Virus record (IMG/VR): IMGVR_UViG_3300009285_000597
Span: 1 to 26,138 of that record
DNA from: a virus
Length of the DNA stretch: 26,138 nucleotides
Strand: one strand, 5' to 3'
The notes below the pieces were generated by a model. The model saw only the letters and a program-made list of their open reading frames with translations. It was not told the origin of the DNA and searched no databases. The translations under genes were made by a program, and so were the position numbers. Position 1 is the stretch's first letter. Each line of letters begins with the position of its first letter. Below are positions 2,226 to 25,387 of this stretch, in pieces.

Positions 2226-2255
2226 TTGAAAACCTAGTTATGACTGACGTATATT
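2226..2255 (+). promoter_or_regulatory. Late-type promoter (copy 1) for the portal gene
   Basis: TTGAAAACCT at 2226-2235, then 14 bases, then the -10 TATATT at 2250-2255. The portal ATG is exactly 36 nt from the first T, 7 nt past the -10. This matches the five other copies described below in sequence and spacing. The predicted mRNA is leaderless. Confidence 0.75.
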
Positions 2256-2261
2256 GAGAAC

Positions 2262-4292
2262 ATGGCAAGCCAAGAAGAACTCCTGAAAGAAGTAATGTCT
2301 CACTATAAGGCATGGACTGATGACAGAGACTTAAGAATGACTAGGAAATACGGGTGGGATGACATAACCGATGCTTATTACGGCCAATTGCCTGATGACT
2401 GGCCTTTTACTTCGCATACGACAGACCCAAGAATTAGGACGGCACTCATTGAGAAGAATGCCAGGCTGGTAAATGGTAAGTTAAGGGGTAGATTGGTGCC
2501 GCGGGAAGCGGGAGACATCATCAGCGCCCGGATTAACAATACTAAGCTGGATTTCGATTGGGATAATGCCAGTGAGGGTGGGTCAATGCTGGTTAAAATA
2601 TCAATTTGCGATATTGATACCAGGCTGTATCAAAGCAAATTCGGCCTGATCAAGTGGAAGTGCGAATATGATGATGAGGGCAAGATTACCTTTGAGGGGA
2701 ACGAGTTCACTCCGTTGGATATTCGCAACTGTGGAATGGATTTCGCCGCTTCGCATGTAAAGGATGCCAAATGGTTTCAGTATTTAAGCTGGGAGTTCAT
2801 TGAAGACTTGGAAAAACAGAGGGATTCAGAGGGCAAGCTTTTGTTTAAGAACCTGGGGAAAATAAAGGCTGACATTTTGGCTAGAAAAACTGAAACGGGA
2901 CTGGTTTCTTCCACTCGCAATACTCAATACACTAGCCGAATGAAGACGATACAGGGACTAGAAGACCGAGTGGGAACCGATATTGCTTTTCCCGTGCTTC
3001 TTGTTGCCCATGAATTAAGGAATGATGAGTGGATTGATTTCTGCCCGGAGCATAGTGAGATCATCAGACATATAGATAATCCCTACAAGCATGGCAAGAT
3101 ACCGATTGCCCAACTCAGGTATTACCCAATTCAAGATGATCCGTTAGGTGAGAGTGAAGTGGAGAGTGTTATCCCTCTCTGGAAGGCGATACAGGCTACA
3201 GTTTGTGCTTACATGGATGAGGTTATTCTTAAGATGCGCCCCCCGCTTAAGATAATTGAGGGCGCAGTTAGGTTGGAAACAGTTGTTTATAACCCCGAGG
3301 CCCAATGGTTAATGACCAGACCTGATGCAGTGACCGAGATGCAGAGTAACGGTGAGGCGGTGAGGTACTTTGAGACAACTTATGGCGCTTTGGTGTCGGC
3401 ATTCAATACTGCAATGGGGATGATGAGTCAAGGAGTGAGCGGAATAGACCAGTTCAATCCCGAGAAGACGGCAACTGAAGTAAGGGCATCGGTTAAACAG
3501 CAAAATGCGAGAGATGAAAAGAACCAGAGCGACCTAGCCGAGTTTATCAAGGATATAATGCTTTTCTGGCTGTCGAACAACAAACAGTTTCTCTTTACCG
3601 ATCCCAAGAAGAAAGAACATATTATCAGGATTATCGGGCAGGAAAACTTCGCTTACTTCAAGCAAGCCGGAATGGATGAAATGATAGTCCCGCCCGAGGT
3701 CATTGAAATGATCGGCGACATTATTGAGCAAAACCCTAATACCAGCGATGCCGAGATCCAGCAGATGATGGACGCAGGCGCCCAACCCAAGTACCCAGTC
3801 ATCACCAATCCCGAAGAGAAGGACTATACCAAGATGAATATGAAACCCAAGATGCAAATTAACGAGACGGGAGATATAGCGGAAGTATATGCTACCCCAG
3901 AGGACTTCCAGGGAACCTATGACTACATTGCCGATGTTAAAAGTATGTCTGTGGGAGCTAATGAGGAAATGATTCAGGGAAGACAAAACGCCATAACAGC
4001 TTTAACCACTAACCCGGTTGTGTTACAATTACTGGCAGGAGAAGGATTTAGACCCAAGGTCAAAGAACTGTTAGAATCGAGCTTTGAAGACCTGGGACTG
4101 AAAGATGCCTCGAGATTCTTTGAAAAGATCCAACAACCAGCCATCCCCGGCCAGCCTGGCCCAGGAGAAGCGCCAGGAGTTACTCAAGCAGGAGTTGGGC
4201 AAATGGGAGGCATTCAACCGCCTGTCGGGCAACCCGGATTACCAGTCCTACCTCAAGCCCCTGTTGGAATCAATCCGCAACAAATGGCCTGA
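2262..4292 (+). CDS. Portal protein
   Basis: A 676-residue protein directly after the terminase and before the scaffold and capsid genes, the standard place for the dodecameric portal through which DNA enters and leaves the head. It is mostly mixed alpha/beta with long helices in the second half (around residues 390-450, SGIDQFNPEKTATEVRASVKQQNARDEKN, typical of the clip and stem region). It ends in a Pro/Gly/Gln-rich tail (from about residue 625). Size and order fit the podovirus-type portals. No ribosome site is present; the ATG is placed for a leaderless mRNA. The last 188 nt are shared with the next gene in the +1 frame. Confidence 0.85.
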   Translation: MASQEELLKEVMSHYKAWTDDRDLRMTRKYGWDDITDAYYGQLPDDWPFTSHTTDPRIRTALIEKNARLVNGKLRGRLVPREAGDIISARINNTKLDFDWDNASEGGSMLVKISICDIDTRLYQSKFGLIKWKCEYDDEGKITFEGNEFTPLDIRNCGMDFAASHVKDAKWFQYLSWEFIEDLEKQRDSEGKLLFKNLGKIKADILARKTETGLVSSTRNTQYTSRMKTIQGLEDRVGTDIAFPVLLVAHELRNDEWIDFCPEHSEIIRHIDNPYKHGKIPIAQLRYYPIQDDPLGESEVESVIPLWKAIQATVCAYMDEVILKMRPPLKIIEGAVRLETVVYNPEAQWLMTRPDAVTEMQSNGEAVRYFETTYGALVSAFNTAMGMMSQGVSGIDQFNPEKTATEVRASVKQQNARDEKNQSDLAEFIKDIMLFWLSNNKQFLFTDPKKKEHIIRIIGQENFAYFKQAGMDEMIVPPEVIEMIGDIIEQNPNTSDAEIQQMMDAGAQPKYPVITNPEEKDYTKMNMKPKMQINETGDIAEVYATPEDFQGTYDYIADVKSMSVGANEEMIQGRQNAITALTTNPVVLQLLAGEGFRPKVKELLESSFEDLGLKDASRFFEKIQQPAIPGQPGPGEAPGVTQAGVGQMGGIQPPVGQPGLPVLPQAPVGINPQQMA

Positions 4293-4446
4293 TCCTGCCC
4301 AAGAAGGATTTGACCGAAAGTACATCATTGAGTTCGCTCGGGCGCAGGCATACCTGGAAATATACAACCTTATGGAAACTTCGGGGAAGATGATTGAGAA
4401 CATTCGTAAGCAGATGGAAGAACCAGAGAAAAATTATGCAATATAG
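4105..4446 (+). CDS. Small helical protein overlapping the portal 3' end
   Basis: A 113-residue protein, charged and helical, with a core such as LLKQELGKWEAFNRLSGNP followed by YLKPLLESIRNKW. Similar short proteins often follow phage portals, but I cannot name a function. The first 188 nt are shared with the portal C-terminal tail in a different frame, and both readings look like genuine protein. ATG at 4105 has no ribosome site. TTG at 4195, preceded closely by CAGGAG, is a possible later start. The 3' end overlaps the next gene. Confidence 0.55.
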   Translation: MPRDSLKRSNNQPSPASLAQEKRQELLKQELGKWEAFNRLSGNPDYQSYLKPLLESIRNKWPDPAQEGFDRKYIIEFARAQAYLEIYNLMETSGKMIENIRKQMEEPEKNYAI

Positions 4447-4612
4447 GTGTTCTCGATGTTGTAAGATTAGGGATGAAAGAGAATTTTATGTTGATAGAAC
4501 GAGAAAAAGTGGCAAGCAAGGTTGGTGTAAGAATTGTGGGAGTGAATATTACAAAGGGGCACCAAGATATTATTTTTTAAGAGAAATAACCATACTATCC
4601 AATGAAATCTAA
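4436..4612 (+). CDS. Small zinc-finger protein
   Basis: A 58-residue basic protein with CSRC near the N-terminus and CKNC about 25 residues later, separated by a KIRDEREFYVDRTRKSG-type linker. This is the pattern of small phage zinc ribbons resembling the zinc site of endonuclease VII and HNH-like proteins. No nuclease catalytic histidine cluster is visible, so it may be only a DNA- or RNA-binding remnant. I chose ATG at 4436 over an upstream in-frame start because it begins the conserved part and overlaps the previous stop by 11 nt. Confidence 0.6.
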   Translation: MQYRCSRCCKIRDEREFYVDRTRKSGKQGWCKNCGSEYYKGAPRYYFLREITILSNEI

Positions 4613-4820
4613 ATACTTTTTCGAGCAGTTCAAGGACCAGATACAAGTAGAACACAAGCAATTTGAGACACACTTAGAGGAAAAAGAAGTATTGGGAAAC
4701 AAATGCCAGCATTCCGGCAAGGTGAAAGCAGTTTCAGGAGGATTAAGGTGTCAATGCGGAGCCGGTTGGCAAGGATCGCAACTCAATGTTTTACTAGATC
4801 ATTTTAACCGTGTGATATAA
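4602..4820 (+). CDS. Small Cys/His protein, function unknown
   Basis: A 72-residue protein with a charged helical N-terminal half and a C-terminal half carrying CQH and CQC (about residues 35-52), which could bind one metal. It overlaps the preceding zinc-finger gene by 11 nt. Its stop codon is part of the TGATATAAT promoter of the scaffold gene. It is the third small Cys-rich protein in the packaging region. Confidence 0.5.
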   Translation: MKSKYFFEQFKDQIQVEHKQFETHLEEKEVLGNKCQHSGKVKAVSGGLRCQCGAGWQGSQLNVLLDHFNRVI

Positions 4821-4821
4821 T
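4813..4821 (+). promoter_or_regulatory. Extended -10 promoter for the scaffold gene
   Basis: TGaTATAAT, identical to the element at 389-397, overlapping the stop of the preceding gene. The ATG at 4832 is 11 nt past the box, so the predicted leader is only about 4 nt. No ribosome site precedes the start. Confidence 0.6.
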
Positions 4822-4831
4822 TAGTGAAAAC

Positions 4832-5770
4832 ATGGCTGATGAAGCATCTGATTCTAAGATTGTTGATAGATTGAAGAACCAACCCCCTTTTGAAGAAGAT
4901 ACAGAGCCAGAGAAACCATTGGGTGTAGAGGAAGAGGAAGAAACACAAGAAGAAACGCCAGAAACCCCCGAAGAACCAGAGGAAGTTGAAATACCGGCGG
5001 AAGAACCAGCTGAAGATGAACAGAAGAAACGCACGCAAGAGCAATTTGAGAAGTTAAAAGAACATAACGCTAGTTTGAAGGAGGAGTTGGAGAAAGAAAA
5101 GATTAAAAAGCAAGTTCCAACCAGGAATGCTCTTGATGCTTTAATTCCCCAAGAACCATCTCCAGTCACTAATGTCGTTCCTACACCCCAGCAATACCCG
5201 AACCTCTCTCCGAAAGAAATAAAAGATGTGTTTGCGGGGTTAGTTGATAGCCAAGGATATGTAGACAGCGGTCTTTTAATCGAAACTCTCAAGGAAACGG
5301 ACAATAGAGCCAAGGAAGCAGAACAACGGGTACAACTTGCAGAACAGGAGAACAAAAGGATTAACCGAAGGATGGATGACTTTGAGAGAAAAGAAATAAT
5401 GAGGAAAGTCCACGAAATGTATCCCAAGATCAATCCAGAGAATGCCGACTCTGATAATCCGGCCCTTAAGTTTGATGAGGCTTTTTATGATGCCTTCCAA
5501 GGGGAAGTCATACGCCAGTGGTCAACAACTGGCCAGGAGGATGTGTGGTTAGCGGCTAAGAAATGGAGTGATATACTGTATGGAGACATGAAGAAGGCAG
5601 ATAAGGAAAAAGCGGAGGAGGCGGAACTGGCAAAGAGAAATATAAATGCCACCACCGCCAAGCAGACTAATCAACAGGGGACAGGTAAAGACCAGGATGA
5701 ACTGATTATGGGTACAAGATTGGGCAGAAAAGGATCACTGGCGGAGAGATTGAAGAGATCTGGGTACTGA
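4832..5770 (+). CDS. Probable head scaffolding protein
   Basis: A 312-residue protein with an extremely acidic, Pro/Glu-rich N-terminal region (about residues 25-72), predicted coiled coils (about 70-95 and 155-195, rich in E, K, Q) and a basic C-terminus ending in LAERLKRSGY. A charged, helical, low-complexity protein located between portal and capsid, with a basic C-terminal end that could contact the capsid, is the usual form of a phage scaffolding protein that templates the prohead. No protease motif is seen, so removal would not be autocatalytic. The assignment rests on composition and position. Confidence 0.65.
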   Translation: MADEASDSKIVDRLKNQPPFEEDTEPEKPLGVEEEEETQEETPETPEEPEEVEIPAEEPAEDEQKKRTQEQFEKLKEHNASLKEELEKEKIKKQVPTRNALDALIPQEPSPVTNVVPTPQQYPNLSPKEIKDVFAGLVDSQGYVDSGLLIETLKETDNRAKEAEQRVQLAEQENKRINRRMDDFERKEIMRKVHEMYPKINPENADSDNPALKFDEAFYDAFQGEVIRQWSTTGQEDVWLAAKKWSDILYGDMKKADKEKAEEAELAKRNINATTAKQTNQQGTGKDQDELIMGTRLGRKGSLAERLKRSGY

Positions 5771-5775
5771 TATTG

Positions 5776-5805
5776 TTGCAAACCTCATCTGGTATTTACT
5801 AGACT
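5776..5805 (+). promoter_or_regulatory. Late-type promoter (copy 2) for the SPS-repeat gene
   Basis: TTGCAAACCT at 5776, 14 bases, then TAGACT at 5800-5805. The ATG is at 5812, exactly 36 nt from the first T. One mismatch to the consensus in the -35 block. Confidence 0.7.
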
Positions 5806-5811
5806 TTCTTC

Positions 5812-7050
5812 ATGGGCGTAGATTATGAAACAGTCGAGATATTGAAGTCTATTGATGGTTCCTTGAGGTCTCTGGTGGCTTATCAGTTGGGTGTTGTTTC
5901 TGTTTCGCCCTCCATTTCTCCGAGTGTTTCTCTGTCACCTTCTGTCAGTCCCAGCCTATCCCCCTCTGTTTCACCCTCAGTGTCTCCAAGTACGGGTCCA
6001 GCAACAACTATATTCAACCCGACTTACGACAGGAGAGGATACCATGCTGGCGGGGGGAGCTGGTCTGCAGACAGGGATGCTGTATTAAGTTCTGGTGATG
6101 ACGGGCTAGGTATTATCCGTAATGAGTCGGACGGAAACGTGCAAAGGTACTTTATGACATTTGATACCTCTGGAATAGATGACGATGCTATTATTAACTC
6201 TGCTACTCTTGAGTTTTACCGTGACGATACCGTTAATGCCTACGATGATACTGGTACTAACAGGCTTGAGCTTATCCAGACAGAACAATTTAGTGGGACT
6301 GTGTATGCAAGTTCAGACTTTTCTAAAGTAACATTCACCTCCGGCGGGAATATAAACTTTGCGGATACAACAGATGATACTTATAACACAATTACTTTAA
6401 ACGCTACGGCTTTGGGCTGGATAAATAAAACGGGATATACAAAACTGGCTTTAGTTGCAGGCAGGGATTTCGATAATGCAGTTGTTAGTGGGGCGGCTAA
6501 TATAGCCTTCCAAAATAGGAATGAAACTTACCCCGTTAAGCTGAACATTAGTTACTCTGCAATTTCGGTTTCTCCTTCAGTCTCACCTTCCAAGAGCCCA
6601 TCATTGAGCCCCAGCCTATCGCCGTCCCTGTCCCCCAGCTTGAGTTCCTCATTATCCCCAAGTCTTTCACCATCACTTTCGTCTTCCCTATCACCCTCAC
6701 TTAGTCCGAGCCTGAGTCCCAGTATTTCCTCCTCAGTCTCACCTTCGGTTTCTTTGAGCCCCTCGCTCAGTCCCAGCTTGTCTCCTTCCATTAGCTCAAG
6801 CCTCTCTCCAAGCGAGTCCCTCTCACCCAGCCTCAGTCCCAGCATTAGCCCCTCTCTGTCTCCATCCTTGTCGCCAAGTTTGAGTCCATCTCTGTCGCCG
6901 TCACTGAGTGAAAGTTTGAGCCCCTCTCTGTCAGCGTCCCTTTCACCTAGCCTCAGTCCGTCTCTGTCCCCATCCCTCAGTCCGAGCATTAGCCCATCAG
7001 CCAGCCCGAGCTATTCTCCGAGCGCTTCAGTGTCTCCAAGCCCTTCATAG
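5812..7050 (+). CDS. Ser-Pro-Ser repeat virion protein with a central DNRLRE/CBM96-like domain
   Basis: A 412-residue protein in four parts: a short N-terminal segment (1-29), a first SxSPSxSPS repeat block (30-61), a beta-rich domain (about 66-250), and a second repeat block from about 252 to the end. The middle domain has the pattern of DNRLRE/CBM96-like modules (MTFDTSGIDDDAIINSATLEF, then TLNATALGWI), which are beta-sandwiches often linked to carbohydrate binding. The gene lies between scaffold and capsid genes and has a late-type promoter, so it is probably a virion component, such as a decoration or head fibre protein. The repeats would form an extended, stiff stalk and are potential sites for Ser O-glycosylation. 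Function is inferred. Confidence 0.6.
   Translation: MGVDYETVEILKSIDGSLRSLVAYQLGVVSVSPSISPSVSLSPSVSPSLSPSVSPSVSPSTGPATTIFNPTYDRRGYHAGGGSWSADRDAVLSSGDDGLGIIRNESDGNVQRYFMTFDTSGIDDDAIINSATLEFYRDDTVNAYDDTGTNRLELIQTEQFSGTVYASSDFSKVTFTSGGNINFADTTDDTYNTITLNATALGWINKTGYTKLALVAGRDFDNAVVSGAANIAFQNRNETYPVKLNISYSAISVSPSVSPSKSPSLSPSLSPSLSPSLSSSLSPSLSPSLSSSLSPSLSPSLSPSISSSVSPSVSLSPSLSPSLSPSISSSLSPSESLSPSLSPSISPSLSPSLSPSLSPSLSPSLSESLSPSLSASLSPSLSPSLSPSLSPSISPSASPSYSPSASVSPSPS
5899..5991 (+). repeat. N-terminal SPS-coding repeat block
   Basis: Tandem four-residue units of the form SxSP, with x mostly V, I or L. Units are repetitive at the protein level but use varied Ser codons (TCN and AGY), so the DNA repeats are imperfect. 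Confidence 0.8.
6565..7047 (+). repeat. C-terminal SPS-coding repeat block (~160 residues)
   Basis: About forty SLSP-like units in tandem with occasional SS, SES, SAS or SK interruptions. Serine is coded by both TCN and AGY and proline by several codons, giving near-repeats in DNA with conserved protein periodicity. The long open frame on the opposite strand here is a by-product of this composition. Confidence 0.85.
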
Positions 7051-7052
7051 GG

Positions 7053-7082
7053 TTGATAACCTCCGACCAACTTATATACACT
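7053..7082 (+). promoter_or_regulatory. Late-type promoter (copy 3) for the capsid gene
   Basis: TTGATAACCT at 7053, 14 bases, then TACACT at 7077-7082. It begins two bases after the stop of the SPS-repeat gene. Unlike the other copies there is no ATG at +36; the predicted transcript starts near 7089 and has a leader of about 105 nt. Confidence 0.65.
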
Positions 7083-7088
7083 CCAATT

Positions 7089-7193
7089 ACAAAGGTGTCC
7101 GGTGCCCCGACAATAAACTGGGCATTAACCTATCAATCTTTGTGAACCCTTACATAGGTTCTCAAACATAAAGTAGGAAAGTAGGTGATCATA
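7089..7193 (+). promoter_or_regulatory. Structured 5' leader with a strong ribosome site for the capsid gene
   Basis: Two possible hairpins are visible: TGCCC (7103-7107) with GGGCA (7120-7124), and AACCTAT (7127-7133) with ATAGGTT (7154-7160). A strong ribosome site, GTAGGTGAT (7181-7189), lies 4 nt before the ATG at 7194. The design suggests high and stable capsid mRNA translation, unlike the leaderless neighbours. No known riboswitch was recognised. Confidence 0.5.
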
Positions 7194-8129
7194 ATGGCAT
7201 TTAAGTCAACATACACAACCTCAGCAGGAAATGAAATGCGGGAGTCCTTATTGGACATCATTCGTGATGTATCTCCCAATGAGGATAACTACTTCACATC
7301 AAATCTTGCGAAAGGTCCAGTAGCTACTCAAACCTTGCATCAGTGGAACATCTACCACGAAGCAAGAGCTTCTTCTATAAGTCCAAGTGTTCAGGGTGCA
7401 GATACAACGTATCCCGAACCTCAGATTGAAGTTCGATCTACGAACTATACTTGTATTCTTGAAACCCCAGTCGCCGTCTCTCGTACTAAAGCGTCCATCG
7501 CTATGATTACCGGGGAGGATGAATTTGGGAAGGACAAGGAGAGGGCATTGAGGAGACTCAAGAGCAAAATGGAATACGCAGTCGTTAATGGTGCCGCGGC
7601 AGTCGGTTCTTCCGCCGCCGCCGCCCAACTTTGCGGTATCTGTGGCTCTGTAACCACGAATGTATCTACATATCCTTCTGGATTGCAGTCATTCACGGAA
7701 ACTATTCTCAATGACATGGTGCAACAGTCATGGAACTCCGTTGGAGCTTCCTATGTTGCTGATGTGTTAGCCGTACCAGTTGTCCTGAAAAGGAGAATTG
7801 CTACTTTCGGAACCACCTTGACGAGAACTATCCCGGCCTCTGAAAAGAGACTGACCAAGGAAGTTCGCGTCTACGATTCCGATGTCGGTCCGACCATTAT
7901 GGTGCTCGCCCACAAAGATATTCCTTCGGGAGTATTAACTAATCAGGCTCTGCTTGTCAGAGAAGATTTGTTAGAATTGTCCTTCTTGGTAAAGACAGGC
8001 GAACCGCACTGGGAGAATCGGGCAAAGACAGGAGACCGTGAGAATGGAACCTATATCACTGAGTTTACTTTTGTAAACTTTGATGAACAGGCTTCCGTAA
8101 AGCACGCAGGTTTTCTAAGAACCCTTTAA
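7194..8129 (+). CDS. Major capsid protein, SU10/DUF5309-like
   Basis: A 311-residue protein that forms the head shell. The N-terminal part (LLDIIRDVSPNEDNYFTS, then TLHQWNIYHEARA, then EVRSTNYTCILETPVAVSRT) follows the pattern I know from the SU10-type major capsid family (DUF5309), an HK97-fold capsid. The mid region (EDEFGKDKERALRRLKSKMEY) resembles that family's helical spine. It lies after the scaffold gene, has its own promoter, an optimal ribosome site and a terminator, consistent with the most abundant virion protein. ATG at 7194 is preferred over the in-frame GTG at 7185, because the latter falls inside the ribosome site. Confidence 0.85.
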   Translation: MAFKSTYTTSAGNEMRESLLDIIRDVSPNEDNYFTSNLAKGPVATQTLHQWNIYHEARASSISPSVQGADTTYPEPQIEVRSTNYTCILETPVAVSRTKASIAMITGEDEFGKDKERALRRLKSKMEYAVVNGAAAVGSSAAAAQLCGICGSVTTNVSTYPSGLQSFTETILNDMVQQSWNSVGASYVADVLAVPVVLKRRIATFGTTLTRTIPASEKRLTKEVRVYDSDVGPTIMVLAHKDIPSGVLTNQALLVREDLLELSFLVKTGEPHWENRAKTGDRENGTYITEFTFVNFDEQASVKHAGFLRTL

Positions 8130-8146
8130 CTGAAGGTTAATCAGTT
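8128..8146 (+). other. Stem-loop at the capsid gene stop codon
   Basis: AACTGA (8128-8133) pairs with TCAGTT (8141-8146) around a 7-base loop and covers the end of the TAA stop. It lies just before the terminator and may help stabilise or end the capsid mRNA. Confidence 0.4.
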
Positions 8147-8152
8147 AGAAAG

Positions 8153-8177
8153 AGTCCCGCTGATAACGGGACTTTTT
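8153..8177 (+). terminator. Intrinsic terminator after the capsid gene
   Basis: AGTCCCG (8153-8159) pairs with CGGGACT (8167-8173) around a 7-base loop, followed at once by a T run to 8177. This is a textbook rho-independent terminator and the only convincing one in the window. Confidence 0.88.
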
Positions 8178-8226
8178 CATGGAGACTTTTCTTGGAGTTG
8201 CCCACCATGATGATTACTCCCGTGTA

Positions 8227-8232
8227 TATAAT
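8227..8232 (+). promoter_or_regulatory. -10 box, upstream of two
   Basis: TATAAT with an upstream GTG, 11 nt (first base to first base) before an ATG at 8238 that is in frame with the gene below. It restarts transcription after the capsid terminator, together with the box at 8279. Confidence 0.45.
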
Positions 8233-8276
8233 ATAAGATGGTTGTGTTCATATCATCATGCGGAGCTTCATTCGGG

Positions 8277-8284
8277 TGTATAAT
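8277..8284 (+). promoter_or_regulatory. -10 box next to the preferred start
   Basis: TGTATAAT, with TATAAT at 8279-8284 and the ATG at 8292, 13 nt from the first base. Near-leaderless geometry like the other virion genes. No clear -35. Confidence 0.55.
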
Positions 8285-8291
8285 TATTAGG

Positions 8292-8702
8292 ATGGCTTCG
8301 GATAAAGTGATTACAGTGGGTAAGGATGAGTTTGAAGAAGTCCCTGAAACTGCCGTAGCCGCTTCTAGGTGGTTAGTTGAGATATGGGAGAGATTAGGGA
8401 AGCCTGATACACCTCTAACTGAAGCTGGTGCAAAGTTAATGAATGTAATTATCGCAGTGTGGGAAGAGTTGTACCCCCAAGAGGTAGTTGAGTGGTATGG
8501 GGACCGCAAGGATTACAAGGCTAGTGAGTTATCAATCCAAGAGCAATTAAAAAAACATACCGGCAGGAGTTTGGCTTCGTATCCCTTCCCTGTTTTCCAA
8601 ATGATGCGGAAGCTGTTTCCCAAGTTCAAGCCGGGAGACAGGGCAAGTTGTCTGAAATTAGTAACTAAGTGGCCAATGTTTTTGTATGCCGTGAAGAAAT
8701 GA
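8292..8702 (+). CDS. Small helical protein after the capsid gene, function unknown
   Basis: A 136-residue, mostly helical protein (VAASRWLVEIWERLGKP, then AKLMNVIIAVWEELYP). Its place directly after the capsid gene suggests a head or head-completion role, but I do not recognise the family. ATG at 8292 is preferred because it begins ATGGC, like most leaderless starts here, and sits at the right distance from a TATAAT box. ATG at 8238, with its own TATAAT, would add 18 residues (MVVFISSCGA...). The stop overlaps the next gene by ATGA. Confidence 0.6.
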   Translation: MASDKVITVGKDEFEEVPETAVAASRWLVEIWERLGKPDTPLTEAGAKLMNVIIAVWEELYPQEVVEWYGDRKDYKASELSIQEQLKKHTGRSLASYPFPVFQMMRKLFPKFKPGDRASCLKLVTKWPMFLYAVKK

Positions 8703-10477
8703 TCCTGTCCTGTTGTATTATCGTTGGCGGGGATCATGAGCTTGAAAGCCTCAAGCGGGTAGTAAACTCCGTGCTTCCGTACACGGATGAGGTGATTATT
8801 ACGGCTAATGGAGCCTCCGTATACGGAATAGAGCAATACTGCAAAACCGAGCCGACGATAAAGTACTTTTATCATGCCTGGACTAAGGACTTCTCTGAAC
8901 AAAGGAACTTTTGTGCCTCCAAGGTAAGAAAAGACGCCGATTACTATTTTTGGATAGACGCCGATGACGTCCTAATTGGTGGGGAGTATTTGCCGATTAT
9001 TGCCACTAACGCCAAGAAACGGGGATTAGATGTGGTTTTCTTCACTTACTGGTATGGATGCTTGTTTAAGGGAGAACCGTCTGTAGAAACTATGGAGAAA
9101 GTGGAATTGACGCAGGTACGGGAGAGACTACTTAAACCTGGCTCGACTATTTGGAGAAAAAGGTTGCACGAAACTCCCGTGCCCGTAGAGAATCTGGATT
9201 TTACATATACGGAGGTTAAATATTCTGAGGAGTTCCCCATTGTTTGGCTTCACTTAGGAGTGGACAGAAACATGCCGATTGAGAAGCAGATAACCAAGAC
9301 GGCCAGAAACAGGGAATTATTGGAGTTGGAGTTGGATGATGAGAGAAAGAAGGGAAACGCTGATCCCCGGACACTGGTATATCTGATGAAGATATACTCC
9401 GAAACAAACGAGGAGGAACTTTTGAATAAAACCCTGGAAATGGGAAATGAGTATTTAACTAAATCCGGCTGGGATGCTGAGAGAGCAATGTGTTGTTGCA
9501 TGATGGGGAAAGCCCTAGGGAGACTGGGGCGAGACCAGGAAGCTAAATCCTTTCTCTTTAAATCTATCGGTGAATATCCATACGACCCCATGTTATATCT
9601 GCATCTTTCAAGGGTTTGTTATAACCTCAAGCAATTTCGGGAAATGAAGCACTGGCTGGAGTTTGCACTTACCTTAGATCCTTTGGAGGCCATGTCTAAT
9701 GTTAGTAATCTGTTAGAGTTAAAACTTCTCTCAGAAGAACTGGCAATGCACTACGCATTTGAGTCTGAAAGGAATGTGAGAAAGGCCCACAAGGCGATGA
9801 AGATGCTATACGATGAGTTACCGTCACCTGAGAATAGGGAGAAGCTGGAGTATTTGGAAGAGCTAAAGAAACTAGATGAAGCAAGTGAAGCGGCCCATAG
9901 ACTAACTCTTTATTATCAGGACCAAGAAGACTCCGAAGGTGTAGTGAGAGTGATTGAGTCTATGCCGGAGGCGATGCGTAATCTGCCTTTTGCCTGGGCT
10001 ATGTATAACAAACATAAGACACCCAAAACCTGGGGTAAGAATGAGGTTTGCTACTATGCTACCTTCGGGCGACCCCATCTTGAGAAATGGGATGGCAATA
10101 GTTTGGCCAGAGGTTTGGGCGGATCAGAGACGGCAGTAGTTAGGCTGTCTGAAGAATGGGTTAAAGCAGGCTGGAAGGTAGTTGTTTATGGTGATCCCCT
10201 TAAGGAAACCGAAATAAATGGGGTTAAGTATTTGCCCTTTTATCAATTCAATCCCCGTGACTCGTTTAATATCCTTATCAACTGGCGAAGCAATCATCTG
10301 GCGGGGAAGGTAAAGGCTAAGAAGTTCATGGTGGATTTGCATGACTTAGTTAGTCCGGTGCAGTTTAAGAGTCGGGAAAAGCAGGTTGATAAATTTATGG
10401 TCAAGTCCCAGTTCCATGCCTCACTGTTGGAAGGAATCGAGTTGGAAAGGATAGAAACTATATCAAATGGCATTTAA
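8699..10477 (+). CDS. Glycosyltransferase: GT2 domain, helical-repeat region, N-terminal half of a GT-B domain
   Basis: A 592-residue multidomain protein. Residues 1-190 form a GT-A fold family 2-like domain (SCCIIVGGDHELESLKRVV; metal-binding WIDADD at D87-D90). About 210-440 is helical and TPR-like (MGKALGRLGRDQEAKSFLFKS). About 452-592 is the N-terminal Rossmann half of a GT4-like GT-B enzyme, with glycine loop GLGGSETAVVRL (G474) and ending in ...ETISNGI, which is normally the inter-domain hinge. The C-terminal half of that domain begins in the next gene, in the +1 frame. It is coupled to the preceding gene by ATGA. It probably transfers sugars to a protein or glycan; substrate unknown. 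The in-frame start at 8669 is rejected. Confidence 0.8.
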   Translation: MILSCCIIVGGDHELESLKRVVNSVLPYTDEVIITANGASVYGIEQYCKTEPTIKYFYHAWTKDFSEQRNFCASKVRKDADYYFWIDADDVLIGGEYLPIIATNAKKRGLDVVFFTYWYGCLFKGEPSVETMEKVELTQVRERLLKPGSTIWRKRLHETPVPVENLDFTYTEVKYSEEFPIVWLHLGVDRNMPIEKQITKTARNRELLELELDDERKKGNADPRTLVYLMKIYSETNEEELLNKTLEMGNEYLTKSGWDAERAMCCCMMGKALGRLGRDQEAKSFLFKSIGEYPYDPMLYLHLSRVCYNLKQFREMKHWLEFALTLDPLEAMSNVSNLLELKLLSEELAMHYAFESERNVRKAHKAMKMLYDELPSPENREKLEYLEELKKLDEASEAAHRLTLYYQDQEDSEGVVRVIESMPEAMRNLPFAWAMYNKHKTPKTWGKNEVCYYATFGRPHLEKWDGNSLARGLGGSETAVVRLSEEWVKAGWKVVVYGDPLKETEINGVKYLPFYQFNPRDSFNILINWRSNHLAGKVKAKKFMVDLHDLVSPVQFKSREKQVDKFMVKSQFHASLLEGIELERIETISNGI

Positions 10478-12002
10478 ACAGCACAAACTATTTTGGTGCA
10501 GTTCCTATGATAGGGGAATACAGTATCTTCTGTTTATGTGGCCGGACATAAAACAAGCATTCCCTGACGCTGAGTTACATGTCGCTTATGGTTGGGACAC
10601 CTTTATCCAGCTTTCTAGGGGCAATCCAGAGCGTATGGAATGGATGAGATCGGTGGAAGCATTATTGAAACAACCAGGGATAACTCATTATGGCAGAATC
10701 GGCAAGAAAGAGTTAGCAAAAGTCCGGCAATCGTGTGGAATTTGGGCGTACCCGACTGATTTTAAGGAGATTAACTGCATTTCCGTTCTTGAAGCGCAAT
10801 CTGACGGCCTTGTACCTGTAACTATATCACTAGCGGCCCTACAGGAGACCGTAGGTAGTGGAATTAAGGTGTCGGGCGACATAAGAGACAAGAAAATACA
10901 GGATGCTTATTTAACGGAGCTGTTTTTGTTGATGGGAGACAAGGAAAGATGGGAAAAAGAATCTAAAAAAGCTAAGAAATTCACAAATAAGTATTACTGG
11001 TCAACAATTTCGGGCGAATGGATGAAATTTTTTGATAAACCGATTAGCATTCCCAAGGTTTCAGTGATAACACCGACCATTCGGGAAGGATGGTGGAGAA
11101 TAATGGCCGAAAACCTTGCAGGCCAGACTTACAAGAACATGGAGTGGATTATTGTTGATGACTACCCGACAGATAGGCGTGCAATTGCAAAAAAATACGC
11201 TAAATGTTACAAACTGGACATTAGATACTTCCGGGGAGATAAAGTAACACGTTACTATACCAGACAGTGCGGGTTGGTCAGGGCGAACAACAAGGCGTGG
11301 CAGAATGCCAAGGGTGAGCTATTAGTTTGGTTACAAGACTTCATTCTTATTCCCGACAATGGGATTGAGAACCTGGTAGACATCTATCGGCACAACCCCA
11401 ACGCACTAATTGCCCCGGTTGATGTTTACTACGACTGTGAGAAACCTAACTTGGAGAACAAGGAAGACTGGTGGGCAAGGGAGGACGCATCTATAGACAC
11501 TAAGGACGTTTTAACCAAGGAGACTTGGCGAAATGTTCGAGTGCAAAATCTAGGAATGAGGGAAAGCGAGAACCCATTTGACTATGAAGCTAATTATGGT
11601 GCTATTCCCAAACATATTCTGGATGAATTAAATGGCTGGTGGGAGTTTATGGACGATGGACTGGGTTATGATAATACAGAAATTTGCTATAGGGCTATGA
11701 AACTGGGCTACGGACTAATTATAGACGACACAAATATATCAAAGTGTATCAATCTGTGGCCGATTATCGGTGGTTTGTCCCAGAACATTACATCGAGGGA
11801 GAGAATGTTAAATCCGCCAAGGTGGTTGTGGCTCAAGCAACAGACGGAGGGTGGAAAACTCTCCATTAAAAGAGATACAAAGTTAGATGAGAGTATTTCT
11901 TTGCCGTTTGAAGTGCCCAAAGAGATTGAAGATAAAGATTGCGCAAAATGGATACAGGATAACGCCTTAGATATTTTAAAGACCTGGGAGGGGGTGATAT
12001 AA
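10467..12002 (+). CDS. Glycosyltransferase: C-terminal half of a GT-B domain plus a GT2 domain
   Basis: A 511-residue protein. Residues 1-190 are the C-terminal, nucleotide-sugar binding half of a GT4-like enzyme: LFWCSSYDRGIQYLL (C11 region), PDAELHVAYGW, and an E-x7-E signature in EINCISVLE (E101-E109). Residues 196-430 are a GT2-like domain (PKVSVITPTIREGWW, WIIVDD), in which the usual DxD is a less typical WLQDF. It starts at an ATG 11 nt before the stop of the preceding gene, in the +1 frame. The missing first half of the GT-B domain is the C-terminal part of that gene, so the two proteins may work as a complex, or be one gene broken or frameshifted. Confidence 0.8.
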   Translation: MAFKQHKLFWCSSYDRGIQYLLFMWPDIKQAFPDAELHVAYGWDTFIQLSRGNPERMEWMRSVEALLKQPGITHYGRIGKKELAKVRQSCGIWAYPTDFKEINCISVLEAQSDGLVPVTISLAALQETVGSGIKVSGDIRDKKIQDAYLTELFLLMGDKERWEKESKKAKKFTNKYYWSTISGEWMKFFDKPISIPKVSVITPTIREGWWRIMAENLAGQTYKNMEWIIVDDYPTDRRAIAKKYAKCYKLDIRYFRGDKVTRYYTRQCGLVRANNKAWQNAKGELLVWLQDFILIPDNGIENLVDIYRHNPNALIAPVDVYYDCEKPNLENKEDWWAREDASIDTKDVLTKETWRNVRVQNLGMRESENPFDYEANYGAIPKHILDELNGWWEFMDDGLGYDNTEICYRAMKLGYGLIIDDTNISKCINLWPIIGGLSQNITSRERMLNPPRWLWLKQQTEGGKLSIKRDTKLDESISLPFEVPKEIEDKDCAKWIQDNALDILKTWEGVI

Positions 12003-12122
12003 ATGCCTTATAAATCGGAGAAACAGCGAAAATATATGCACGCTAAATTGCCCAAATTAGCCGCCAAATGGGATAAGAAATACGGGGGCAAGATAGTTAA
12101 ATCCAAGAAAAAGAAAAAATGA
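12003..12122 (+). CDS. Small basic phage protein with SEKQRKYM motif
   Basis: A 39-residue Lys-rich protein: MPYKSEKQRKYMHAKLP, then LAAKWDKKYGG and a run of Lys. Very short proteins with the S-E-x-Q-R-x-Y-M/L pattern and a following A-x-x-W are frequent in tailed phages, but their role is unknown. GGGGGTGAT just before the ATG is a strong ribosome site. Its stop overlaps the next start by ATGA. Confidence 0.7.
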   Translation: MPYKSEKQRKYMHAKLPKLAAKWDKKYGGKIVKSKKKKK

Positions 12123-12814
12123 CCGTCTTTTATCGGATGAGTCTAAAGAACTCGGCACATGAGGCAAAGCGTCCACGCCATGCTTATGACAAACTGGCAT
12201 TGGCGGGGATGTGTTTAAGGTCGTTTGTGGAGGCATTTGCTGAGATTAAGCCCAAGGTGAGGTTTCTATTGGATCATTGTCCACCCGAGTGGGCTGTGAT
12301 GATTAACAGGACTTTGCCTTGGGAACATGAGATTGAGAATTTACCTTTTGCCGGCCAGGATGTTTCATATCTGGCTCAGTTGGATCGGGCTAAGGAATTG
12401 GATGATTATGTTTTGTTTCAGGAGGATGATTATGTGTACTTGAGAGGTGCTGGCAAGAAGATTGAGGAAGCACTAAAGGTCTTGGAGTTTATAAATCCTT
12501 ACGATCATCGGGAGTTTTATACAATTAACACCGACTTCCACCGTGGACCATTTGAAATTAAGCTGGTGGGAGAGCAACACTGGCGAACGATTGATTTTAA
12601 TACCATGACCTACGGCTGTCACTCCGGCAGATTAACGAATTACTGGGAAGCCCTGCATAAACACGGCTTCTGGGATAAGAATACTTGGGATGAGATGGCT
12701 AAGGAAGGAGCTAAATTGTGGAGTCCGATTCCATCTTTATGTACACACATGCACACCGACTTTTTATCACCAGGGATTTTATGGAAGGAGGAATTTGACC
12801 GGTTGGATAAATAA
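12119..12814 (+). CDS. Glycosyltransferase-like protein (GT-A fold)
   Basis: A 231-residue protein. The core VLFQEDDYVYL (D103-D104) looks like the metal and nucleotide-sugar binding acidic site of GT-A enzymes. It is followed by ...NTDFHRGPFEIK and a C-terminal part rich in His and Trp (SLCTHMHTDFLSPG). It lies inside a glycosyltransferase/methyltransferase cassette. The family is not the classical GT2, so the assignment is fold-level only; sugar donor and acceptor are unknown. The start is ATG of the ATGA overlap with the small basic gene. Confidence 0.6.
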   Translation: MTVFYRMSLKNSAHEAKRPRHAYDKLALAGMCLRSFVEAFAEIKPKVRFLLDHCPPEWAVMINRTLPWEHEIENLPFAGQDVSYLAQLDRAKELDDYVLFQEDDYVYLRGAGKKIEEALKVLEFINPYDHREFYTINTDFHRGPFEIKLVGEQHWRTIDFNTMTYGCHSGRLTNYWEALHKHGFWDKNTWDEMAKEGAKLWSPIPSLCTHMHTDFLSPGILWKEEFDRLDK

Positions 12815-12833
12815 AGACAAGTGCAAGAAGCAC

Positions 12834-13313
12834 ATGAAGCTGGACATTGGCTCTGGCAATCCTTCACAAGGGGAAGTTCAACCTGAAGGATACGTTTTGA
12901 ATGATATAGAACACCACGCCAACATTGATTTGGTCTGCGATATTAAAAATCTGGCTCAATATATACCGAAAGATTATTGTTCAGAGATTAGAGCTTCACA
13001 TATTTTGGAGCATTTTGGGACAAAAGAAGTGACTGGGATAGTGAAGATAATACATGAGCTATTAGAGAAGGATGGGAAATTGGTGATCTACGTTCCCAAC
13101 TTTAAGTGGCACTCTGAACTGGCGGCAACAGGGAATGACGAAATGGCTGTCCACTACGCCTTTGGTGGTCAGTTGGATCAATACGATTATCATAAGACAG
13201 GCTTTACCCCCAAGATATTGAAAAACCTATTGGAGGCAAATGGATTTGAAGTAGTAAGAATGATCGGGGCCACAAGCATTGAGTGTGTTGGATTGAAAAC
13301 CTCAACCAAATAG
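12834..13313 (+). CDS. SAM-dependent methyltransferase (class I)
   Basis: A 159-residue methyltransferase with motif I LDIGSGNP at residues 3-10, an acidic residue at the end of strand 2 (LNDIE), a post-motif ASHILEHF, and LLEKDGKLVIYVPN as strand 5. This matches small predicted methyltransferases found in polysaccharide clusters, which often methylate sugars. The start is ATG at 12834, because motif I starts at once after it; upstream in-frame extensions lack similarity. Its last 21 nt contain the -35 block of the adaptor gene's promoter. Confidence 0.75.
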   Translation: MKLDIGSGNPSQGEVQPEGYVLNDIEHHANIDLVCDIKNLAQYIPKDYCSEIRASHILEHFGTKEVTGIVKIIHELLEKDGKLVIYVPNFKWHSELAATGNDEMAVHYAFGGQLDQYDYHKTGFTPKILKNLLEANGFEVVRMIGATSIECVGLKTSTK

Positions 13314-13322
13314 TTATAACCT
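13293..13322 (+). promoter_or_regulatory. Late-type promoter (copy 4) for the adaptor gene
   Basis: TTGAAAACCT at 13293, 14 bases, then TAACCT at 13317-13322. The ATG is 37 nt from the first T (one more than usual). It overlaps the end of the methyltransferase gene. The -10 is identical to that of copy 6. Confidence 0.7.
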
Positions 13323-13329
13323 TTGGGTA

Positions 13330-13962
13330 ATGACGCTGAATCAGATTTTGTTAGACTCTTCTGCTGTCTTAGACCTTTCTGGTGATTTACCAACAGGGGA
13401 CGAATTAACCTTGAGGCGTAACTATGCTAACCAGGCGGTGGAAGACGCGGCGGCGACAGGTCAATTACCAGAGTTTAAGGTGGAGTATCAGCTTTATACC
13501 ACAGGGGGCACAGAAGTACCACTTCCGGGTTTCAGGGAACTTATGACTAACCCCAGAGCTTTGTCCTCAACCGGGTGGAGAGAGTTTAATGAAGTGGAGT
13601 TGGAAAACAGGGAGGATGCGATAGACGATGGTCTTGATTTCTGCACTATCACCGGAAATCCCCAAGCCGGGTATGTGGCGAACTTTAGCGTCAATCTTGT
13701 ATCAGGAATGAGTCTATCCGTTATTTACCAGCGTTATCCTTCCGGCATGCCCTCCCTAACTAGCGTTTGCGAACTCTCCGATCCGACTTATATTACCAGG
13801 AAGATTGAAAGCTATGTCCTTTATTCCAGGGGAGATGATAGGTTCCAGACCGCCGAAGCCAGAGCCAATAGCGTGTTACTTAACATGACTGGGCGGAAAA
13901 TGAAAGGAACTGGGGGTCAATACAGGACAACCCAAGCCGGTTTCAATAACCCCCTAGAGTAA
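13330..13962 (+). CDS. Probable head-tail adaptor/connector protein
   Basis: A 210-residue protein. The N-terminal part is helical (LTLRRNYANQAVEDAAATGQLP), followed by a beta-rich core (FKVEYQLYTTGGTEVPLPGF) and a helical C-terminal part. This layout and its place before the nozzle gene fit the adaptor that binds under the portal in SU10- and P22-like podoviruses. The assignment is mainly by position. The late-type promoter separates it from the sugar-modifying cassette. Confidence 0.55.
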   Translation: MTLNQILLDSSAVLDLSGDLPTGDELTLRRNYANQAVEDAAATGQLPEFKVEYQLYTTGGTEVPLPGFRELMTNPRALSSTGWREFNEVELENREDAIDDGLDFCTITGNPQAGYVANFSVNLVSGMSLSVIYQRYPSGMPSLTSVCELSDPTYITRKIESYVLYSRGDDRFQTAEARANSVLLNMTGRKMKGTGGQYRTTQAGFNNPLE

Positions 13963-13966
13963 ATGA

Positions 13967-15910
13967 ATGCCGATATTTCTTACAAAAGAACCTCCATACA
14001 AACGTAGAGCTGATGCGGAAGCAGAGTGGAACACTTGCCGGAAGGGATTAAACCTGCTTCTTAGGCCAACGGAACTGGGAAGGGATGAGTTGGCCTTGGC
14101 GGATAATATAATGCTGGTAGGTTCGGGCGTGCCTACGGGACGCTGGGGAACCGAAGTTTATTTCAACGCCAATGTTACTGGTTCAATCAGGGGTTTCGGG
14201 AAGTACAAGAGCAATGATGGGACAACTGATGAGTTCTTTGCTTTAACCGACGAGGGTTTCCTAGCTAAGAAAAACGACTCCAGTTACACGGTAATTACTG
14301 GTCAGTCCTGGCCATCGGGGACGATGATCCATTCAGAGCAGTTGGGAGGGACAAGTTATGTAGTTTCAGAGGATGTTGATTTGACAAGTTATGCTGGAAG
14401 CACATTAACGGTATTTTCTAAGATCGGCGCCCCTACTGGCTTATATGCTACTAACTTCTCAGGAGCTACTGGCTCTAACCGTTCCAGTTACAAGATTGTG
14501 GCAATCGGAGCCAATGGTGGCCAAACAACTCCTTCGACAAATTATGTCTTGTCTAACTTACCAACGACTCTCTCCGATTCTGAATACCATCTTTTCTGGA
14601 CGGCTCCATCTTGTGCGACATTGAGCGGATACGAAGTATACCGGGGGCGAGCTGGCGATGAGACCTTTTTGGCAACAACTGACCCGACTGTAACTAAGTA
14701 TATAGACAGGGGTGAAGAGGCCAGCCAGACAATCCTTACTCCCGCTACAAATACCACTGGTGGGGTAAAGAGTAACTTTATTGTTAAATACAAGGATAGA
14801 CTGCTTGTGGTAGATGATGCGGAACCTAATAAATTATTGATAAGCGGCAGGTATCCGTACCACACCAAATTCAGTTGGTATGACGGTGGTGGGTATATTT
14901 ATATTGACCCTGACTCCGGTGACAATATAACTGGCATTACCGTCCAGCCTATTGCCGACAGGATAGTGGTCTATAAGGAATACTCTTCTTATCTTGTGGA
15001 GTTGAGTCTGGTTCAGATTGGTAATTACTACGTTCTTGATCCTAAGTACAATCCCATTTCAACTTCAGTGGGTTGTTCAAACCAAGACACAATTCAAACG
15101 GTTGAAAATGACTCTTTCTACTTTGGGAGAAACGGAGTTTATGTTACGGGATATGAGCCTAATTTCTTAAATATCATCAGAACTAACGAAGTAAGCGCTA
15201 AGATGAGACCATACCTAGACACTCTTAATCAGACAGATTATCAAACTGCTTGTGCTTTGTATGTAGACCACAAATATATTCTCTCCTTCCCCCAGAAAAA
15301 GGAAATGATTATGTATGACCGGGAGCGGGGAGCGTGGACGGGACCGTGGAGATTTCCTTTCGGTATTTCCCATATGGCTAAGTATATTGATACTTCTGGT
15401 AATGAGAAATGGATACTGGGAAGCACTGAAGGGAACACTGTTTACAATTTTAATGTTGATGTGAACAGTGATGACGGAGAAACAATCACTAAGACATTGA
15501 GGTTGAATAAAGAAGACTTTGGAGACTGGACAACCCTACATATTGTGGAGTTCTTCTATTTCTTATTCAGGAATATCACTGGGGAGACCACGGTAAGCAT
15601 TCTCTTGGAGAATAAAGATGGGGATGTGACTACGGCTAAGTCCTTCACCATAAGCGGAGCTGAAGTAGGAGGTTCTACGGGCTGGGGAATGGATATGTGG
15701 GGAACTGTTATGTGGGGGCAAACCAATACTTTTACCGTCCAGGTATCAACGGATGAGATTAGTCGCTGGGGGACATTGTTTAAGGAAGCAAGGTATATCC
15801 AATTGGAGATTTCTACAACTGCCGTAGGTTCCCAATTCGAGTTTTTAAAGGCAAAGATTACAGGTAAGGCGCGAGGGAAGGGGGCACTTAGCGGTTCTCA
15901 GCGCGTGTAA
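13967..15910 (+). CDS. Probable tail nozzle protein (beta-propeller)
   Basis: A 647-residue, almost wholly beta protein. An N-terminal arm (TKEPPYKRRADAEAEWNTCRKGLNLLLRPTEL) precedes repeated beta-blade sequences, such as GSIRGFGKYKS, FIVKYKDRLLVVDDAE and RERGAWTGPWRF, with an inserted fibronectin III-like domain around residues 155-257 (SGYEVYRGRAG, then TKYIDRGEE). Podoviral nozzle proteins form a hexameric tube of beta-propellers below the adaptor, and this order matches. The ATG at 13967 lies 5 nt after the preceding stop and has no ribosome site. Confidence 0.65.
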   Translation: MPIFLTKEPPYKRRADAEAEWNTCRKGLNLLLRPTELGRDELALADNIMLVGSGVPTGRWGTEVYFNANVTGSIRGFGKYKSNDGTTDEFFALTDEGFLAKKNDSSYTVITGQSWPSGTMIHSEQLGGTSYVVSEDVDLTSYAGSTLTVFSKIGAPTGLYATNFSGATGSNRSSYKIVAIGANGGQTTPSTNYVLSNLPTTLSDSEYHLFWTAPSCATLSGYEVYRGRAGDETFLATTDPTVTKYIDRGEEASQTILTPATNTTGGVKSNFIVKYKDRLLVVDDAEPNKLLISGRYPYHTKFSWYDGGGYIYIDPDSGDNITGITVQPIADRIVVYKEYSSYLVELSLVQIGNYYVLDPKYNPISTSVGCSNQDTIQTVENDSFYFGRNGVYVTGYEPNFLNIIRTNEVSAKMRPYLDTLNQTDYQTACALYVDHKYILSFPQKKEMIMYDRERGAWTGPWRFPFGISHMAKYIDTSGNEKWILGSTEGNTVYNFNVDVNSDDGETITKTLRLNKEDFGDWTTLHIVEFFYFLFRNITGETTVSILLENKDGDVTTAKSFTISGAEVGGSTGWGMDMWGTVMWGQTNTFTVQVSTDEISRWGTLFKEARYIQLEISTTAVGSQFEFLKAKITGKARGKGALSGSQRV

Positions 15911-15912
15911 GG

Positions 15913-15942
15913 TTGAAAACCTATGATGACTTAATTTAGTAT
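15913..15942 (+). promoter_or_regulatory. Late-type promoter (copy 5)
   Basis: TTGAAAACCT at 15913, 14 bases, then TAGTAT at 15937-15942. The ATG at 15949 is exactly 36 nt from the first T and starts a 26-residue mini-gene ahead of the coiled-coil virion protein. Confidence 0.72.
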
Positions 15943-15948
15943 TTCGAT

Positions 15949-16029
15949 ATGGCACAGAAAACAAAGTTAGGAAAGAAATTATCTAAGTACGCCCAAAAGG
16001 TGATAGCAAGGAGAAAGGCAAAGAAATAA
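15949..16029 (+). CDS. 26-residue basic peptide, function unknown
   Basis: A tiny open frame coding a Lys/Arg-rich helix-like peptide (MAQKTKLGKKLSKYAQKVIARRKAKK). It begins with ATGGC at exactly the expected site for a leaderless mRNA from the promoter at 15913, and its stop is one base before the ATG of the next gene, so it is likely translated and coupled. It could be a small virion DNA-binding peptide or only a translation leader. No family is recognised. Confidence 0.5.
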   Translation: MAQKTKLGKKLSKYAQKVIARRKAKK

Positions 16030-16030
16030 T

Positions 16031-17248
16031 ATGGCGCAACTTCTGGGAAATGTGGTTGATTGGCTTGGTACAAAACTAAACTTACCGGAAAGGGGTTGGA
16101 GTGAAAGAATCGCAGGTGGTGCAACAACTCGTACTGGCTCAACTCCTTACGCTCAATCTTGGTCTCAACCGAGGATGCTTACACCTGAAAGTACATCCTC
16201 TGTGGGTCAAAACGTATTACAAAAAGCTGGCGTGGGGATGATAAACCCTTTAATATCGAGTAGAAACCTACCGACTTCTCCCGGTGGTCAGGTTTTAGGT
16301 ACAACTAAGGTAGGTGGAGGCGGTGGTGGAGGTGGAGGCGGTACTACCTCCCAGACACAACAAACCCAAGCAACATCTGGTCCCTCTGAACAAGATTTGC
16401 TTCAGGCAGAATTAGATAATATCTTCAATCCAGTGTTCAGTGCTTTGCAAGGGCAGGAAGAAACCTTGAGGCAAAACTATGCACCAGTAGAAGGACAGAT
16501 AACCGCCCAAGGAGAACTTTCAAAACAGACCGTCGGCGGTCAGTATGAAACCGGAGCTAAACAATTGACACAAGAAGAAACTGGTCTGGGAACCAGGAGG
16601 GAAGATGCTTTAACATCGGCTACTAGACTTTACAATGAACTTCAGAGAGGTGGACAACAGCGGTTTGGTGGTGCTTCCTCAGCAGGTGAGGCTTTTCAAA
16701 CATTAACGGCAACCGAACAACAGAGAAGGCAGGGGACAATTCAAGGCCTTTATGAAACTGGAATGCAAAAGGTTACAGATCTAAAGGCGAGCCTAAAACA
16801 AAAGTACGACCTTGCAGTTCAGGAAATAACTCTCCAAACTCAACAGTATATTGCCGATGCCCAAACCCAATTCAGAGATGCTTTACAGTCAATTAAGAGC
16901 GCCGTGTCTATGGCTCAGTCTGATAAAGCTACCGCCTCCATGAATGCTTTGCAGGACTTGAGGAATAGAATATACACGATCAATGCGCAAAATTTGCAGT
17001 TCGCTCAACAGTTGGCTCTTAACAATGAAATAAACCTGAAAACGGTTGATGACTATACAGCCAAGATTGCTCAGTTCGGTGCCCAAGCTGGAATAGTGGG
17101 GACAAACTTCGGTACACAGGCTATGAATACTGCGGGGACAACGAGTTATGGCATTGGTTCTACCCAAACACCTACGCCAACTACACCAACTGGTGTAACG
17201 ACTGGTCAGTGGTATAAGGACAAAGATGGAAATTGGGTGCAGGGCTAG
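16031..17248 (+). CDS. Coiled-coil, Gln-rich putative internal virion protein
   Basis: A 405-residue protein. Residues 1-90 are low in structure, then comes a run of ten Gly (about 94-104) and a QTQQTQ stretch. Residues 120-340 form a long helical region rich in Gln, Ala and Thr, interrupted by GG, which looks like a coiled coil. The C-terminus (TPTPTTPTGVTTGQWYKDKDGNWVQG) is Thr/Pro-rich with a short WYKD..NWV end. Between nozzle and the large internal protein, this fits an ejection or internal virion protein of a podovirus. It is translated one base after the upstream mini-gene, with no ribosome site. Confidence 0.5.
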   Translation: MAQLLGNVVDWLGTKLNLPERGWSERIAGGATTRTGSTPYAQSWSQPRMLTPESTSSVGQNVLQKAGVGMINPLISSRNLPTSPGGQVLGTTKVGGGGGGGGGGTTSQTQQTQATSGPSEQDLLQAELDNIFNPVFSALQGQEETLRQNYAPVEGQITAQGELSKQTVGGQYETGAKQLTQEETGLGTRREDALTSATRLYNELQRGGQQRFGGASSAGEAFQTLTATEQQRRQGTIQGLYETGMQKVTDLKASLKQKYDLAVQEITLQTQQYIADAQTQFRDALQSIKSAVSMAQSDKATASMNALQDLRNRIYTINAQNLQFAQQLALNNEINLKTVDDYTAKIAQFGAQAGIVGTNFGTQAMNTAGTTSYGIGSTQTPTPTTPTGVTTGQWYKDKDGNWVQG

Positions 17249-17249
17249 T

Positions 17250-17279
17250 TTGAAAACCTCGGCTAAATTGAAGTAACCT
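17250..17279 (+). promoter_or_regulatory. Late-type promoter (copy 6) for the large internal protein
   Basis: TTGAAAACCT at 17250, 14 bases, then TAACCT at 17274-17279. The ATG at 17286 is exactly 36 nt from the first T. It begins right after the stop of the previous gene. Confidence 0.72.
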
Positions 17280-17285
17280 AGGCCA

Positions 17286-25385: not shown

Positions 25386-25387
25386 AT

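Follow-up and report, generated by a model that had tools for sequence, protein, structure and literature searches.

Conserved promoter-like sites ahead of virion genes in an uncultivated phage clade: a candidate class of late promoters

Six sites at gene junctions of the virion region

The virus record IMGVR_UViG_3300009285_000597 (IMG/VR) was analyzed over its entire length of 26,138 bp, referred to below as the window. The record carries terminase and portal genes and an SU10-type capsid gene, and the early region is missing from it; gene starts are predictions throughout. An initial annotation, made from the sequence alone, had described a repeated promoter-like element, TTGNNAACCT-N14-TANNNT, at six positions of the virion region. 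A scan of the window returned exactly six matches to this pattern, all on the plus strand and at the six positions described; 100 dinucleotide shuffles gave 0.02 matches on average and at most 1. The -10 sequence (TA...T) starts at offset 24 from the first T at all six sites, leaving a spacer of 18 nt, within the 16-18 nt of ordinary sigma-70 promoters, and an ATG follows at offset 36 in four cases and at 37 in one, with none at the site at 7053 (Table 1). All six sites are intergenic. A loose first scan that allowed three mismatches gave no excess over chance (16 vs 13.7) because of its low specificity, and a generic sigma-70 scan gave none either (30 vs 33.7).

The AACCT extension of the -35 sequence had been reported as mismatched at 5776 and 7053. 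Two mismatched sites do exist, but all six keep AACCT unaltered: what differs at these two is positions 4 and 5 of the -35 hexamer, which reads TTGCAA at 5776 and TTGATA at 7053. The refined motif TTG[AC][AT]AACC[TC] with a TANNNT -10 is called class A below; class B designates an extended -10 sequence, TGNTATAAT, close to an ATG.

Table 1. Coordinates of promoter-like sites and capsid gene features in the window
Feature	Position	Strand	Context
Class B site, extended -10 TGATATAAT	389..397	+	6 nt before ATG 404 (small terminase); without TTGNNAACC
Class A promoter TTGAAAACCT-N14-TATATT	2226..2261	+	ATG at +36; portal 2262-4292 (PHROG 1216)
Class B site TGTGATATAAT	4813..4821	+	10 nt before ATG 4832 (scaffold-like gene)
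Class A promoter TTGCAAACCT-N14-TAGACT	5776..5811	+	ATG at +36; SPS-repeat protein 5812-7050
Class A promoter TTGATAACCT-N14-TACACT	7053..7088	+	No ATG at +36; precedes capsid leader; similar layout in ~24 relatives
H-type pseudoknot	7096..7124	+	Stem 1 7096-7099/7109-7112; stem 2 7103-7107 (TGCCC)/7120-7124 (GGGCA)
Shine-Dalgarno AGGTGA of major capsid gene	7183..7188	+	ATG 7194
Major capsid protein	7194..8129	+	Pfam SU10_MCP, E 6.5e-48
TATAAT	8279..8284	+	7 nt before ATG 8292, probable gp154 start; class B at 7/16 orthologues
Class A promoter TTGAAAACCT-N14-TAACCT	13293..13329	+	ATG at +37; gp210 13330-13962
Class A promoter TTGAAAACCT-N14-TAGTAT	15913..15948	+	ATG at +36 opens 26-codon open reading frame 15949-16029
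Class A promoter TTGAAAACCT-N14-TAACCT	17250..17285	+	ATG at +36; gp1081 17286-20531
Ordinary sigma-70-like TTGACA-N18-AATAAT	21209..21238	+	9 nt before ATG 21248 (Tad2-like gene)

Conservation and gene specificity of the motif

About 30 related IMG/VR contigs were reached via the capsid protein, and the clade set comprised 32 loci with a major capsid protein identity of at least 44%. In these loci TTG[AC][AT]AACC[TC] was found 88 times in sense and 7 times in antisense orientation; with an ATG at a distance of 35-39 nt the counts were 56 and 1. The initial annotation had named one outcome as fatal to its proposal, namely that the motif is just as frequent at random coding positions; these counts reject it. 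The histogram of motif-to-ATG distances peaked at 36-39, and permuted motifs gave flat distributions. The -35 and -10 sequences are 18-20 nt apart in the relatives, for a consensus of TTG[AC][AT]AACC[TC]-N14..16-TANNNT.

Sites were also compiled by anchoring on a TTG, a -10 sequence and the ATG of a long open reading frame. Among the TTGs located 35-39 nt ahead of the ATG, 49 of 74 had ACC at positions 7-9, compared with 0 of 127 at other offsets. The 49 compiled sites are identical at A6, A7, C8 and C9, A6 having been outside the selection criteria; position 4 is A or C in 98% and position 5 is A or T in all, C never occurring there. None of them has TTGACA as its -35; they read TTG[AC][AT]A with ACC directly behind it. 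A few TTGACAACC sites are present elsewhere in the clade. The -10 was preceded by a TG at one of 33 class A sites.

The genes that follow class A sites were surveyed among orthologues in 17 genomes or fragments. Such sites were present upstream of the portal gene (14/18), gp210 (13/16), gp1081 (12/16), gp405 (7/16) and family 14 (5 of 11 members). Before other genes they were rare (4/427), those four all standing ahead of virion-region genes, and none was found ahead of an early gene in the surveyed genomes. In genome G007, which has overlapping ends and carries early-type genes on the opposite strand, every ATG-linked site lies in the virion module.

Other promoter types occur in the same phages. 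The scaffold gene and several early genes are preceded by perfect TTGACA-N16..18-TATAAT sequences, 5-11 nt before the ATG, which indicates that the transcribing polymerase can use a standard -35 and that class A is distinct from it. Class B sites are frequent at the small terminase, scaffold and gp154 genes. These observations bear out the proposal that the element is tied to virion genes and differs from plain sigma-70 promoters.

Among more distant loci, L071 (35%) likewise has the motif, at its portal gene and at tail genes, and the others had no set of sites comparable to that of the clade. An ATG-anchored scan of the collection for the exact motif returned 32 stretches, many of them probably due to chance. 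A literature search with the motif strings retrieved only papers that seem unrelated by title, the strings in them being most likely primers.

Several neighbouring features were recorded in the course of this work. In the window, the 26-codon open reading frame behind the 15913 site is directly followed by the long gene gp405 (16031-17248); a 27-aa open reading frame stands at a similar promoter in genome G005. The product of 5812-7050, a gene with its own class A promoter, is a 412-aa protein with long SPSLSPS-type repeats. The gene at 21248-21466, behind the ordinary sigma-70-like site, encodes a 72-aa protein matching the Pfam family Tad2-like (PF11195, anti-Thoeris, E 7.9e-9).

Predicted leaderless transcripts and a structured capsid leader

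At ATG-linked class A sites the end of the -10 sequence is 6-8 nt from the ATG, so that leaderless or near-leaderless transcripts are predicted, a point that the initial annotation had not made explicit. Transcription would start at or within ~2 nt of the A of the ATG, and translation of the late mRNAs would begin at a 5'-terminal AUG. Leaderless bacterial genes have a published signature (Zheng et al. 2011, PMC3160421): their start codon is preceded by a TANNNT sequence at a distance of ~12 nt. The same arrangement, with no room for a Shine-Dalgarno sequence, is found at five of the six window sites and at most class A sites of the relatives. The TA-led genes of that study are cellular and defined by their -10 alone, whereas the sites described here belong to a class of phage genes and carry the conserved upstream sequence TTGMWAACCY.

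The site at 7053 differs from the other five in what follows it. Here and in about 24 relatives, in place of the ATG, a stem (4-7 pairs) that closes a 9-nt loop is located 39-46 nt from the first T. The loop is usually TGATGCTCC, and its TGCTC pairs with a GAGCA located just past a TAAAC linker, forming an H-type pseudoknot. In the window this structure begins ~7 nt past the predicted transcription start (3-10 nt across the clade), and its second stem, TGCCC/GGGCA, is a compensatory change relative to the usual TGCTC/GAGCA. In an alignment of 25 sequences, 93.1% of the cells were paired, compared with 80.0% after shuffling, and two-sided changes numbered 31 as against 8.8; none of 500 shuffles reached this level. 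When the partners were slid by 1-3 columns, pairing fell to 26-44%. The structured leader, likewise absent from the initial annotation, had no match in Rfam.

A scan of viral contigs for the pseudoknot core identified 25 stretches, most of them on contigs already assigned to the clade. Among ten newly seen contigs with the core, a class A site was present upstream in five, and the three of these five with readable downstream genes led into scaffold or capsid genes. The leader lies at 7089-7193 in the window and is found, among other relatives, at L010:9906, L056:2905 and L121:5131. Two contigs not recognised as belonging to the clade (L172:2029 and L175) share both the core pattern and a similar stretch upstream of it; neither has a class A promoter.

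Ahead of the capsid gene (or the scaffold gene in some relatives), the class A promoter would thus produce a leader with a 5' pseudoknot followed by a Shine-Dalgarno sequence. The pseudoknot likely serves to protect and/or regulate the most needed mRNA. An H-type pseudoknot is also present in the 5' leader of T4 gene 32 mRNA. The likeness is one of architecture; the structure described here belongs to a capsid or scaffold mRNA and is located 3-10 nt from its predicted 5' end.

Recognition of the class A element

Taken together, these data favour a reading that we regard as probable: the six sites represent a class of late promoters dedicated to the virion genes of an uncultivated phage clade with an SU10-type capsid. 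These promoters would be used by the host RNA polymerase, give leaderless transcripts and most likely depend on an additional factor that recognises AACC. The host enzyme would read the -10 through its primary sigma factor. The invariant AACC, which is absent from the ordinary promoters of the same phages, would be read by a phage activator or by a remodelled region 4 of sigma. A temporal switch from TTGACA and extended -10 promoters to the late genes would result, functionally similar to that of MotA/AsiA in T4; a phage co-factor that acts on the host RNA polymerase in the manner of these proteins is likely. A more detailed version can be put forward only tentatively: a phage factor of an undescribed family would redirect the host polymerase to TTGMWAACCY and make nearly the whole late programme leaderless, and the 5'-terminal pseudoknot would stabilise or autoregulate only the capsid (or scaffold) mRNA.

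The initial annotation had proposed a phage-specified or modified RNA polymerase. A sigma factor or RNA polymerase encoded by the phage and having its own late promoter would account for a motif that is specific both to the clade and to virion genes, and we consider it highly improbable. The -10 is of the sigma-70 type, and sigma region 4 (Sigma70_r4) was not detected above the cut-off in any of 14 phage records in a search with a positive control. The single-subunit RNA polymerase family PF00940 had no match in the same number of records, in a weak test whose control was silent too. In addition, the conserved proteins are, by position and size, virion proteins and glycosyltransferase-like proteins. 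As to the other half of that proposal, the host polymerase may be modified or an activator may take part, and no conserved candidate gene was found for either. Very little credence is given to an RNA or translation element, or another DNA site such as a packaging site or operator, in place of a promoter. The fixed distance to the ATG would suit such an element, but most capsid-leader sites keep the -10 spacing with no ATG downstream, which speaks for a promoter and not a translation signal. Each genome also has several sites, at gene junctions and nearly all on the late strand.

A host-type promoter is a more serious alternative, although we judge it unlikely. The primary sigma factor of the host would itself prefer TTG..AACC, no phage factor would be involved, and lateness would arise only from DNA replication, supercoiling or promoter strength. 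A TANNNT -10 and a TTG-A -35 at a spacing of 18-20 nt are indeed sigma-70-like, and neither a polymerase or sigma gene (the former by the weak test above) nor a conserved regulator was found in these phages. Early and scaffold genes of the same phages, however, have perfect TTGACA-N16..18-TATAAT promoters, and class A was not found before early genes. In the sole metagenome-assembled genome (MAG) with a relative, moreover, exact motif matches lie on the phage contig (4/5) and not on the rest, in a bin that may not be that of the host.

Several points weigh against the dedicated late promoter class with its additional factor. A recognisable site is missing at some orthologues, and the primary sigma factor of the host may itself favour AACC. 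No conserved early gene emerged as a candidate for the factor, the early regions being poorly conserved. A search for a conserved small helix-turn-helix (HTH) regulator (phmmer, regular expression, Pfam and PHROGs) yielded scattered, unrelated HTH proteins only. Genome G003 encodes a 66-aa Mor/C-like HTH protein (L141:1486-1683; PHROG late transcriptional activator, E 2.9e-7), whose gene has its own promoter of the leaderless type, TTGACA-N16-TATATT; it was found in G003 and in no other relative. G006 and G007 have other small HTH proteins, none of them clade-wide by these methods.

The only match to a genome contig was a phage contig of 23.8 kb, binned in a MAG with the label Micrarchaeota. 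As a host, Micrarchaeota were set aside: the contig is probably mis-binned, because its GC content is 41%, compared with 31-36% in three sampled contigs of the bin, and because the promoters are bacterial in form. An archaeal TATA/BRE reading is rejected on account of the TTGACA-TATAAT and TGnTATAAT sites. A Micrarchaeota-labelled MAG also contains a 385-aa protein with sigma-70 region 4 (L159:532-1689), possibly through contamination of the bin. Several glycosyltransferase- and methyltransferase-like genes lie inside and after the virion module of the window (8669-12814 and 21614-26095), one such family being common to all 17 records compared.

The nearest working analogy is with the middle promoters of T4, in which the -35 sequence gives way to a MotA box at -35 to -26 and sigma region 4 is remodelled (PMC2988021). 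There too a sigma-70 -10 is kept, and a class-specific element that overlaps the -35 region (here about -36 to -27) marks a temporal class. The MotA box, WWWTGCTTTA, is 12 +/- 1 bp from the -10, whereas TTGMWAACCY is 14-16 bp from it and retains the TTG; the definition of T4 middle promoters does not include leaderless starts. Class A was not assigned to these promoters, since it has a different sequence and the families listed for 89 small non-virion proteins from four relatives included neither MotA nor AsiA. In Thermus phage P23-45 with its gp39 protein (PMC7403470), promoter classes also differ in their dependence on the -35. Its middle and late promoters are of the extended -10 type and resemble class B; class A differs from them in its longer -35 element and in the rarity of a TG before the -10. 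The Mor-like protein of G003 resembles the HTH half of Mu Mor/C (Pfam PF08765, phrog_532). Mor binds further upstream than the element described here.

For this clade, to which nothing in the searched phage collection is closely similar (no hit for the portal; best capsid identity 29%), these findings provide a simple late-promoter code and predict that most late mRNAs are leaderless. They add a well-supported new phage RNA pseudoknot and a motif that can be used to find and annotate such phages. If the factor that reads AACC is encoded by the phage, it would represent a new way of redirecting the host RNA polymerase.

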